Assembly: GCA_902793335.1 (NCBI GenBank)
Contig: CADBCZ010000038.1
Span: forward strand, 1-32,898
DNA from: an uncultured Lachnospiraceae bacterium
GTDB taxonomy: Bacteria > Bacillota > Clostridia > Lachnospirales > Lachnospiraceae
Length of the DNA: 32,898 bases
Direction of reading: 5' to 3'
In this document: one piece after another, positions 1 through 1,674 of the stretch
Layout of the letters: the number at the start of each line of letters is the position of its first letter
Numbering within the stretch: position 1 is the first letter of the stretch
The notes under the pieces: model-generated
Told to the model about the DNA's origin: nothing
What the model saw: only the letters and a program-made list of their open reading frames with translations
Database searches by the model: none
Position numbers and translations under genes: made by a program

Positions 1-105
1 TTAGAAACTCTTATCCATGGACAATCAAGACATAAAAATATACCATAATATATCGTAATACGGCGTTCGTAAAAGAAAATAAAACATCCCTACAAACCCT
101 AATTT
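1..105 (+). repeat. 105-bp dispersed repeat, copy 1 (inverted relative to copy 2)
   Basis: This stretch matches 14845-14950 in the opposite orientation at about 93 percent identity by eye, with six substitutions and one single-base indel. The match begins at the first base of the window, so the repeat may continue outside it. It reaches the stop codon of purF. No ORF and no strong internal terminator is visible. A contig end at a repeat is a common assembly break, so the coincidence with the window edge may be technical. Confidence 0.85.
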
Positions 106-1522
106 AGTGTTCAGACAAACGCTTTTCAAAACGATTTTTGCTTACATTTTCCGGAACCGATGTCGGATAATTTCCCGTAAAGCAGGCATTACAAATTCCA
201 TCATGCCCTACTAATTCCGAAAGACTTTCAACCGGAAGATAGCCAAGCGAATCAGCTCCAATCAATTTGGCAATCTCATCAACAGTGTGATTGCATGCTA
301 TAAGATTCTCTTTAGAATCAATATCTGTACCGTAGTAACACGGATTGGTAAATGGTGGTGCAGATATCATCATATGTATCTCTTTAGCACCTGCATCCCT
401 TAATAACTTAACGATGCGTCCACTTGTGGTACCTCTTACAATCGAGTCATCGATAAGTACAACTCTCTTGCCCTCAACTGTTTCCCTGATAGGATTAAGC
501 TTTATCCTGACCTGATCATTTCTCTCATTTTGTGTTGGAGATATAAAGGTTCTTCCTATATATTTATTCTTGATAAAACCTATTCCATATGGAATACCTG
601 ATTCTCTTGAATATCCAAGTGCTGCATCAAGTCCGGAATCCGGAACACCTACTACTACATCTGCATCTACAGGATATTCTCTTGCAAGTATCTGTCCCGC
701 CTTAATTCTTGCGCCATGAACTGAAACACCATCTATTTCTGAATCCGGTCTTGCAAAGTAAATATATTCAAATATGCATATCTGTTTCTTCTTTGTGTCA
801 CAATAATCAGTATAACTTACTATTCCATCGTCAGAAAATACTATGAGTTCACCGGGTCTTACATCACGGACAAACTCAGCGCCCATAGCTTCTAATGCAC
901 AGCTTTCAGAAGCTGCTACATATCGTCCATCCTCACATTTACCATAACAAAGAGGTCTGAATCCATGAGGATCTCTTGCAATAATCAACTTCTTAGCTGA
1001 CATTACCACTATCGAATATGCACCTTCTAAATATTTCATGGTGGATAACACAGCCTGTTCAATCGAAGGTGATTTTAATCTTTCTCTCGTCACAATATAG
1101 GCAATTATCTCTGTATCGGAAGTAGAGTGAAAAATCGCGCCGCTAAGTTCCAAATCATTTCTAAGTGTATAAGCATTACTTATATTACCGTTATGAGCAA
1201 GTGCCATCTTACCCTTTTGATGATTCACTTCCATAGGCTGACAATTATTTCGATTATTTCCTCCGGTTGTACCATATCTGACATGTCCCACCGCCATCTT
1301 CCCACACGGCAGTTTTGTAAGCTCCTCTTCATTAAATACTGAGCTTACCTGTCCGATATCCTTGTGCGAAAAGAACAATCCGTCATCATTAACTACTATA
1401 CCGCAGCTTTCCTGTCCTCTATGCTGTAAAGCATACAGACCATAATACACATCATTTGCTATCCTGTAATTATCAGGTGCAAAAACACCAATGACACCAC
1501 ATTCTTCATGAAGATTACTCAT
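104..1522 (-). CDS. purF: Amidophosphoribosyltransferase (PurF)
   Basis: Catalyses the first step of purine synthesis, making 5-phosphoribosylamine from PRPP and glutamine in the cytoplasm. The protein starts MSNLHEECGVIG: the short leader before Cys8 is the propeptide normally cleaved to free the N-terminal nucleophile cysteine. The glutaminase domain follows (LQHRGQES, VRYGTTG), then the phosphoribosyltransferase domain with the PRPP loop VVLIDDSIVRGTTS. The C-terminal CNAC pair fits the Bacillus-type enzyme that carries a 4Fe-4S cluster. I chose the ATG at 1522 because GGAAAGGAA lies just upstream; an upstream in-frame start would fall in the terminator U-tract. The length, 472 residues, is normal. 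The gene appears to be alone behind its own promoter and attenuator leader. Identity is certain. Confidence 0.97.
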   Translation of the reverse strand: MSNLHEECGVIGVFAPDNYRIANDVYYGLYALQHRGQESCGIVVNDDGLFFSHKDIGQVSSVFNEEELTKLPCGKMAVGHVRYGTTGGNNRNNCQPMEVNHQKGKMALAHNGNISNAYTLRNDLELSGAIFHSTSDTEIIAYIVTRERLKSPSIEQAVLSTMKYLEGAYSIVVMSAKKLIIARDPHGFRPLCYGKCEDGRYVAASESCALEAMGAEFVRDVRPGELIVFSDDGIVSYTDYCDTKKKQICIFEYIYFARPDSEIDGVSVHGARIKAGQILAREYPVDADVVVGVPDSGLDAALGYSRESGIPYGIGFIKNKYIGRTFISPTQNERNDQVRIKLNPIRETVEGKRVVLIDDSIVRGTTSGRIVKLLRDAGAKEIHMMISAPPFTNPCYYGTDIDSKENLIACNHTVDEIAKLIGADSLGYLPVESLSELVGHDGICNACFTGNYPTSVPENVSKNRFEKRLSEH

Positions 1523-1536
1523 TGCATATTCCTTTC

Positions 1537-1583
1537 CAAAAAACAAAAAATAGGGTGCTTCGAGTAAGGACCTCGAAACACCC
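1537..1583 (-). terminator. Rho-independent terminator inside the purF leader (attenuator)
   Basis: On the minus strand GGGTGTTTCGAG pairs with CTCGAAGCACCC (12-bp stem, one G-U) across a 7-base loop and is followed by TATTTTTTGTTTTTT. It lies between the promoter and the purF ribosome site, so it can only work as a regulated premature terminator. Its 5' arm uses the loop and right arm of the hairpin at 1575-1590. Confidence 0.88.
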
Positions 1584-1638
1584 TTGTTTCATAAACACTT
1601 ATTGTTAATCAAAAAAATAAAAGTTCCACCCTTGGAAC
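1575..1638 (-). ncRNA. Candidate ANTAR target: tandem hexaloop hairpins in the purF leader
   Basis: Two hairpins lie on the minus strand: GTTCC-AAGGGT-GGAAC at 1623-1638 and GAAAC-AAGGGT-GTTTC at 1575-1590. Their stems differ in sequence but keep full pairing, while the six-base loops are identical. ANTAR-domain antiterminators bind exactly this kind of element: two hexaloop hairpins with A at loop position 1 and G at position 4, the second overlapping a terminator. Both rules are met here. The linker is 32 bases. That ANTAR regulates this leader is inference from family knowledge; no ANTAR gene is in the window. Confidence 0.65.
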
Positions 1639-1646
1639 ATATAACT

Positions 1647-1674
1647 AGTATATAACTTTTTATTTGAATGTCAA
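1647..1674 (-). promoter_or_regulatory. purF promoter
   Basis: The minus strand reads TTGACA (1669-1674), a 16-base spacer, then TATACT (1647-1652). Transcription would start near 1640, only a few bases before the first leader hairpin, leaving a leader of about 118 bases. Confidence 0.8.

Follow-up and report, generated by a model that had tools for sequence, protein, structure and literature searches.

The leader of purF in the window, which is the whole stretch of 32,898 nucleotides analysed here from an uncultured Lachnospiraceae bacterium, carries two hexaloop hairpins, the second of which overlaps an intrinsic terminator, and this dual element is not a product of chance. Judged by sequence comparison, the leader is very likely an antiterminator responsive to an ANTAR protein within a NitR-type glutamine/nitrogen regulon, with low nitrogen or low glutamine as the most likely signal. 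With less assurance, we think it probable that the clostridial ANTAR (NitR-type) regulon joins genes of glutamine supply (glnN, gltB, amt) with those of amidotransferases (purF, carA, pyrG, asnB), that its standard switch is not dual and consists of one 5'-terminal hexaloop overlapping a terminator, and that in the clade of the window's genome the dual form at purF, carA, gltB and dapL, with its long linker, is derived, one-hairpin elements occurring elsewhere.

Anatomy of the purF leader

A sequence-only reading of this stretch had proposed a promoter, two hairpins, an overlapping terminator and a ribosome-binding site before purF, and all of these were located on the minus strand:

1669..1674 (-): -35 hexamer TTGACA of the purF promoter; TTGACA and TATACT together give 11/12 consensus matches with a 16-nt spacer
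1647..1652 (-): -10 hexamer TATACT of the purF promoter, read from the sequence
1623..1638 (-): P1, hexaloop hairpin GTTCC-AAGGGT-GGAAC, loop of A1/G4 type; from the sequence and compensatory changes in the clade
1591..1622 (-): P1-P2 linker, 32 nt (range over 24 clade elements given below)
1575..1590 (-): P2, hexaloop hairpin GAAAC-AAGGGT-GTTTC, loop of A1/G4 type, the presumed antiterminator; from the sequence and covariation
1552..1584 (-): intrinsic terminator overlapping P2; from terminator prediction and covariation
1538..1551 (-): U-rich tail of the terminator, read from the sequence
1531..1537 (-): purF ribosome-binding site GGAAAGG, read from the sequence
104..1522 (-): purF, glutamine-dependent amidophosphoribosyltransferase, 472 aa, ATG at 1522; from the ORF, Pfam and NCBIfam TIGR01134

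The loops are identical (AAGGGT) and the stems different, as had been stated, and the product of purF exceeds the cut-off of the NCBIfam purF equivalog model (TIGR01134). The predicted start of transcription lies about 7 nt downstream of the -10 hexamer, immediately 5' of P1, and the distance from the -10 hexamer to P1 is 8 nt in 7/7 purF leaders from genus loci of the window's type. The terminator comprises a 12-bp core with one G-U pair and a closing A-U pair, followed by ATTTTTTG. Its 5' arm is made of loop positions 3-6 of P2 and the entire right arm of P2; P2 and the terminator share these bases and are mutually exclusive. Calculated separately, the values are about -5.6 kcal/mol for P1, -4.7 for P2 and -20.7 for the terminator, and given the difference between the last two, P2 needs help to win.

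The leader folds more stably than its shuffles, by 5 sd. A dual A1/G4 hexaloop with an overlapping terminator (both stems of at least 5 bp, at most 100 nt apart, terminator of at least 10 bp) occurred in 0/100 sequences obtained by dinucleotide shuffling of the minus strand of the window, and relaxed criteria yielded a dual element in 1/100. Leader terminators are common, which would suit a constitutive attenuator or a chance fold without any regulation; such an account is hardly credible in view of the 0/100 shuffled windows, the conservation of the element in 7/7 window-type leaders, and the covariation of both alternative folds described below. As a separate observation, a T-rich run 3' of P1 is present in 5/7 purF leaders and was flagged as terminator-like in the window (1638-1611, minus strand); a second terminator after P1 is unlikely because the run is missing in 2/7.

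Elements in the genome and its clade

Model R1 was built from 7 purF and 2 carA leaders, and model R3, which describes P2 plus terminator, from 51 sequences, 6/57 candidates having been dropped because they failed the P2-plus-terminator rule; the E-values of R1-R3 are rough. In the window's own genome R1 matched purF (1.8e-20), carA (2.8e-15), gltB (6e-13) and dapL (3.6e-9), the last three each upstream of the gene, and weakly glnN (0.13); purF, gltB, dapL and carA were named by NCBIfam models above their cut-offs. A common element before carA, gltB and dapL agrees with the tie to nitrogen status that had been suggested for purF, and it bears on the possibility that the leader responds to purines, by a riboswitch or a PurR-type mechanism, with the hexaloops incidental. 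That purF is a purine gene would suit such a response, but it is very improbable considering the other genes that carry the element; moreover, an Rfam 15 scan of the leader returned no family match at E <= 5, which speaks against the riboswitch part of the proposal. In relatives, further element-bearing genes are gltD (G126) and an ammonium-transporter/P-II fusion.

P1 could be placed in 24 elements of the clade, a set that leaves out the leaders of glnN as well as those of amt in G121 and G130. Extraction required A2 and G4 in both hairpins, P1 pairing and the P2 stem pattern, and 0/24 were lost by it. A1 is found in 46/48 loops (G in the other 2), A2 and G4 in 48/48, and position 3 is variable, so that the predicted conservation of A1 and G4 is borne out. 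The P1-P2 linkers measure 31-92 nt. Because stem pairing was partly required when this set and the 51-element set were picked, only compensatory changes count and not the percentage of pairing. Such changes had been called for by the sequence-only reading, and they were found: the fold with P1 and P2 has 7 doubly changed cells vs 1.6 in shuffles, and the fold with P1 and the terminator, in 21 of the 24 elements, has 15 vs 3.1. All 7 of the former lie in P1 (e.g. GTTCC/GGAAC vs GTTTC/GAAAC and ATTTC/GAAAT); the variation in P2 is one-sided. In 6/7 carA leaders the linker is 65-67 nt long and contains a conserved, self-foldable stretch (L195, L154, L208, L212, L213, L214); a hairpin formed there could shorten the effective distance between P1 and P2.

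The leaders of glnN depart from this pattern. That of the window's genome has P2 and the terminator without a canonical P1; it is absent among the R2 and R3 genome-search matches and reaches E 0.017 by R3 on its contig alone with the filters off. In G121 the glnN beside the ANTAR gene has lost the P2 pairing, and a second glnN (C4) possesses an intact one-hairpin element. One-hairpin elements thus occur within the clade too, namely at this second glnN, at amt in G121 and G130, and on contig C66 of the window's genome. In the window's genome and in G121 alike, the glnN leader beside the ANTAR gene retains the terminator; the two leaders concerned are L154:8340-8250 (-) and L002:13440-13330 (-).

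The element on C66 (L289, C66:23551-23598) is a hexaloop-terminator, and the gene that follows is a short ORF of 118 aa of the Peptidase_C26/class-I GATase type. About 500 nt past it, a second similar element was recognised by reading before a circularly permuted ATP-grasp gene, and elements before such ATP-grasp genes were observed in G212 and, by reading, in G675 and G397.

purF leaders of the genus and other relatives

The genus search covered 26 genomes, 20 of which gave a purF match at E <= 1e-100. Related purF leaders had been expected to keep both hairpins, and this holds for one part of them: the window-type genes (86-100% identical) have both hairpins and the overlapping terminator in 7/7 cases, whereas among the other purF genes of the genus (51-58% identical) the dual form occurs in 0/13, with a one-hairpin R3 match about 190 nt upstream of purF in L131 (E 0.0027). 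Within the genus PurF thus alternates between two types (L119-L131 vs L113-L118), each 51-58% identical to the reference of the other; with the dual element accompanying the window's type only, gene replacement is possible.

We further inspected 109 purF leaders (the best 30 loci of one purF search and the best 80 of another, minus L013, which has no upstream DNA). The dual form is present in 3 and a one-hairpin match lies upstream in 4 more, hence most of them have neither form. The one-hairpin matches, obtained with R3 at E <= 0.1 over the 109 leaders and the 13 negative genus loci, lie directly before purF in L044 and L045 (E 2.5e-4), about 260 nt upstream in L051 (E 6e-4), and upstream on the same strand in L015 (E 0.024). 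Counting dual forms only (3/109) would make the purF element a narrow trait of one clade, a notion that we rejected in view of the one-hairpin forms and of the purF elements that model searches revealed in 13 other genera of Lachnospiraceae, besides one in another family.

In L044 and L045, which are uncultured Lachnospiraceae/Clostridiales contigs, a one-hairpin element (1443-1489 in both) with the hairpin GAGGC-AAAGGC-GTCTC stands directly before a purF of the window's type (73-74% identical), and just after it comes a second R3 match.

Elements across the family and the class

Model R2 detected elements in 36/299 Lachnospiraceae genomes at E <= 0.01, some of them before purF in other genera. 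With R3 we obtained 122 elements in 78/299 genomes at E <= 0.001, 5 of them from the window's genome, in a search that used filters which miss weak matches; many of the searched genomes are metagenome assemblies. Downstream genes were assigned by the best blastp match of ORFs starting at most 450 nt downstream to checked references from earlier matches: glnN 42, gltB 18, purF 14, amt 13, asnB 8, carA 6, dapL 3, pyrG 2, PPDK_N-type 2, class-I GATase fragment 1, and none 13. Altogether 107/122 elements precede glnN, gltB, amt, purF, carA, pyrG, asnB, dapL or the GATase ORF. The 14 purF cases come from 14 genera, and the 13 PurF proteins other than the window's are 50-55% identical to it.

The family loops have A1 in 121/122, A2 in 122/122 and G4 in 122/122, counts to be read with the choice of R3 seeds with A1/G4 and with the fact that reading favoured such loops within 2 nt. 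In the 51 elements, whose seeds needed a stem of at least 4, the 5' arm of P2 (which lies outside the terminator) and its 3' arm are paired at 96.1% vs 89.6 in shuffles and show 20 doubly changed cells vs 5.5; for the terminator the counts are 91 vs 22.6. In the class-level search a match was found in 23/391 genomes, 19 of those outside Lachnospiraceae. Reading of 19 places outside the family (G380:C5:49295 was left out) gave 11 with an assigned gene: glnN 6, amt 3, purF 1 and glnA 1. Neighbouring hexaloop-terminator matches within one leader region were seen at G214:C56:23473-23576 (L441), G380:C5:49295-49428 and G321:C22:327165-327571 (L278), and these may be stacked attenuators.

The one-hairpin form at the start site

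The dual form claimed by the sequence-only reading holds for the clade of the window; in other genera the purF element is mostly of the one-hairpin form, so the dual form is not general. In 93/122 family elements the predicted start is followed by a single hexaloop at a distance of at most 20 nt (median 4 nt), with no P1 found and no room left for one. The remainder comprises 9 dual elements, 9 with a longer leader without P1, and 11 without a promoter by our rule (score of at least 9/12). Among the 9 dual elements, 4 come from the window's genome and one (glnN of G214) is a stack of two elements. The predicted start falls within 12 nt of the hairpin at 89/121 real sites vs 16/2175 downstream offsets, with 15/442 upstream offsets and 3/51 other terminators as further controls. 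In the clade of the window the start-proximal place is taken by P1, the first hexaloop. Two stem-loops, the accepted mark of an ANTAR-target RNA, are thus present in the window and in the 24 clade elements and lacking from the 93 family elements.

The abundance of start-proximal single hexaloops raises the question of whether P2 and the terminator are all that matters, the functional unit being a single hexaloop and the P1 of the clade an accessory or a remnant. The one-hairpin elements inside the clade itself argue in the same direction, as do the linkers, which exceed the published range. On the other hand, the 24 clade elements with a placeable P1 show compensatory changes in it, its spacing from the promoter hardly varies, and four other genera (G007, G257, G272, G322) likewise have a P1 with A1/G4 in their gltB leaders; besides, according to the available excerpts of PMC3369931, deletion of P1 abolished eutP induction in Enterococcus faecalis. 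We therefore consider a dispensable P1 unlikely, if well worth keeping in mind, and retain for the purF leader an ANTAR-responsive antiterminator with two hexaloops.

The ANTAR gene and its occurrence

An ANTAR gene in the genome had been named as a check, and the assembly, 98.5% complete with 3.6 Mb on 157 contigs, contains a single match, the gene at C62:15388-16014 (E 1.9e-13, above the Pfam cut-off). It starts 25 nt after glnA, a glutamine synthetase gene of 390 aa; about 2.2 kb further on, past an oppositely oriented gene, there is another glutamine synthetase gene of 712 aa, whose counterpart in G121 carries GSIII_N (glnN). Other members of the genus have purF and carA close to each other and to the glnA-ANTAR pair (e.g. 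G121 C9). We collected 53 ANTAR loci (23 from the genus and the best 30 of the family search), and in 50/53 a glutamine synthetase match lies at most 1.5 kb away. A dapL query also matches near 30/53 of these loci (L001, L132-L153, L296-L325); dapL itself may be the neighbour there, or the query may pick up a different aminotransferase.

ANTAR is present in 22/26 genus genomes and 6/7 clade genomes; in G140 (86% complete) no ANTAR gene was found although elements are present. Among 299 Lachnospiraceae genomes ANTAR occurs in 265, namely in 77/78 genomes with elements vs 188/221 others (Fisher p = 3e-4), or, among high-quality genomes only, in 66/66 with elements vs 158/180 without (p = 0.0016). 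The exception, G162, is 81% complete and has a marginal element match. Since ANTAR is so common (265/299) and the statistics, uncorrected for phylogeny, ignore kinship, this co-occurrence carries weak to modest weight.

The Response_reg domain of the ANTAR protein scores under the Pfam cut-off. By reading, the receiver has no acidic pair (ILIVSASE) and Asn replaces the phospho-accepting Asp at its expected position (VINAPLP), so that the mark of a phospho-activated regulator of the EutV type is missing; the receiver of the relative G135 reads VLD, hence the site varies within the clade. Because the acidic pocket is gone and Asn stands at the phospho-Asp position, control by a binding partner, perhaps glutamine synthetase itself, may be entertained ahead of phosphorylation, as a tentative guess at less than even odds. 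The suggestion of glutamine synthetase as the direct partner draws on gene order and the degenerate receiver only. In an HMM alignment the G4-coordinating Lys149 and Glu160 of EutV are kept in 53/53 ANTAR proteins and Met172 in 52/53, and all of them are kept in the protein of the window's genome. Other RNA contacts of EutV are changed in it: Arg142 to Met, Tyr164 to His, Arg168 to Gly, Asn173 to Asp, Arg175 to Cys and Arg177 to Ser.

These changed contacts, the predicted nature of the ANTAR binding, and the elements of G140, where the ANTAR gene was not detected, would fit hairpins read by another RNA-binding protein or by a small molecule, with the ANTAR gene a bystander. We find this improbable, because A1/G4 hexaloops overlap the terminator, the elements associate with glutamine synthetase, GOGAT and Amt genes, the ANTAR gene adjoins glnA, and elements and ANTAR co-occur; moreover, Rfam provided no match to the window's leader at the threshold given above and no relevant family for 14 family loci scanned at gathering scores. 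Comparison of the ANTAR gene, of the elements of the regulon and of A1/G4 conservation thus favours the ANTAR-type reading originally put forward, which we take as probably correct.

A model for purF

Homology with EutV and AmiR, together with conservation, suggests the following model. By default the nascent RNA would fold the terminator, whose structure is evident in the leader, and purF would presumably not be made. P1, lying at the 5' end of the RNA, would be the earlier hairpin to form, and the active ANTAR protein encoded directly after glnA would bind the A1/G4 hexaloops; P2, once stabilised, would block the terminator and allow transcription of purF. Through the shared element purF would be linked with carA, gltB and dapL in this genome and, in relatives, with glnN, amt, asnB and pyrG. 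Low glutamine or nitrogen is the best guess for the signal because NitR of Clostridium saccharobutylicum NCP262 is, in the accessible part of PMC6316151, an ANTAR protein that induces the glutamine synthetase and GOGAT genes on nitrogen limitation. As a conjecture, raised purF and carA would compensate for a low supply of glutamine.

Several points count against this model: the unexplained rise of a glutamine consumer, purF, that it predicts at nitrogen shortage; linkers that are long by the standard of EutV spacing; the missing EutV contacts; the 2/48 loops with G in place of A1; the weak element at the genome's own glnN; the glnN of G121 without P2 pairing; and G140 without a detected ANTAR gene.

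Comparison with known systems

The partner genes and signals of AmiR and Rv1626 differ from those of the present system. Both proteins (PDB 1qo0, 1s8n; phmmer) share an RR-like plus ANTAR architecture with the protein of the window's genome, and AmiR likewise has His at the position of EutV Tyr164. The eut/EutV system of E. faecalis resembles the purF leader in having two A1/G4 hexaloops, a P2 that overlaps the terminator, and an RR-ANTAR protein. It differs in its target genes and in that EutV is activated at Asp54, whereas the receiver here looks degenerate. In the excerpts of PMC3369931 the natural eut linkers measure 5-12 nt, as against 32 nt in the purF leader, and 14 nt is already poor or inactive; an addition of 20 nt is inactive according to the same source and PMC8934654. 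The curated actinobacterial ANTAR-RNA set, as presented in the available text of PMC8164766, consists of dual stem-loops with a linker of 2-25 nt. Both the window and the clade elements lie outside these ranges.

NitR provides the precedent as an ANTAR protein of ammonium assimilation that acts by antitermination on glutamine synthetase and GOGAT genes, as the ANTAR system of this genome would. Its features recur here in the adjacency of the ANTAR gene to a glutamine synthetase gene and in the element at gltB, the genome's own glnN having a weak, non-canonical one. The likeness concerns the protein and the target genes, the RNA elements being outside the comparison. The regulon described here extends beyond what is reported for NitR, in the portion of that literature at hand, to glutamine users (purF and carA; pyrG and asnB in relatives) and to dapL. 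For C. thermocellum, too, an ANTAR protein near a glutamine synthetase cluster has been put forward (PMC4676874, in part). Covariance-predicted ANTAR RNAs of Firmicutes, Proteobacteria and Actinobacteria (PMC3369931, PMC8164766) likewise stand at nitrogen genes, the predicted targets in the excerpts of the former being ammonium transporters, P-II, and glutamate, glutamine and arginine synthase genes; those RNAs are dual stem-loops, whereas ours contain either a longer linker or only one hexaloop. The sequence-only reading knew of no described ANTAR element at purF, and among the literature matches listed no paper gives purF as an ANTAR target, though the supplementary tables of PMC3369931 may list some of the genes.

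Together the elements outline a coherent glutamine regulon of gut Clostridia with branches in the synthesis of purines, pyrimidines and asparagine, and they would largely escape the dual-hexaloop, short-linker definition on which published searches were built. They also make a question directly testable, since in the available parts of the EutV structure paper (PMC8934654) the minimal binding motif is redefined as one hexaloop, and its model has both hexaloops contacted for antitermination: is one hexaloop enough, or are two needed? We conclude that this is the same kind of system as the described ANTAR RNAs, with targets that are new among the literature matches listed and with two structural departures, a long linker (32 nt in the window, 31-92 nt in the clade) and single hexaloops (93/122 in the family).
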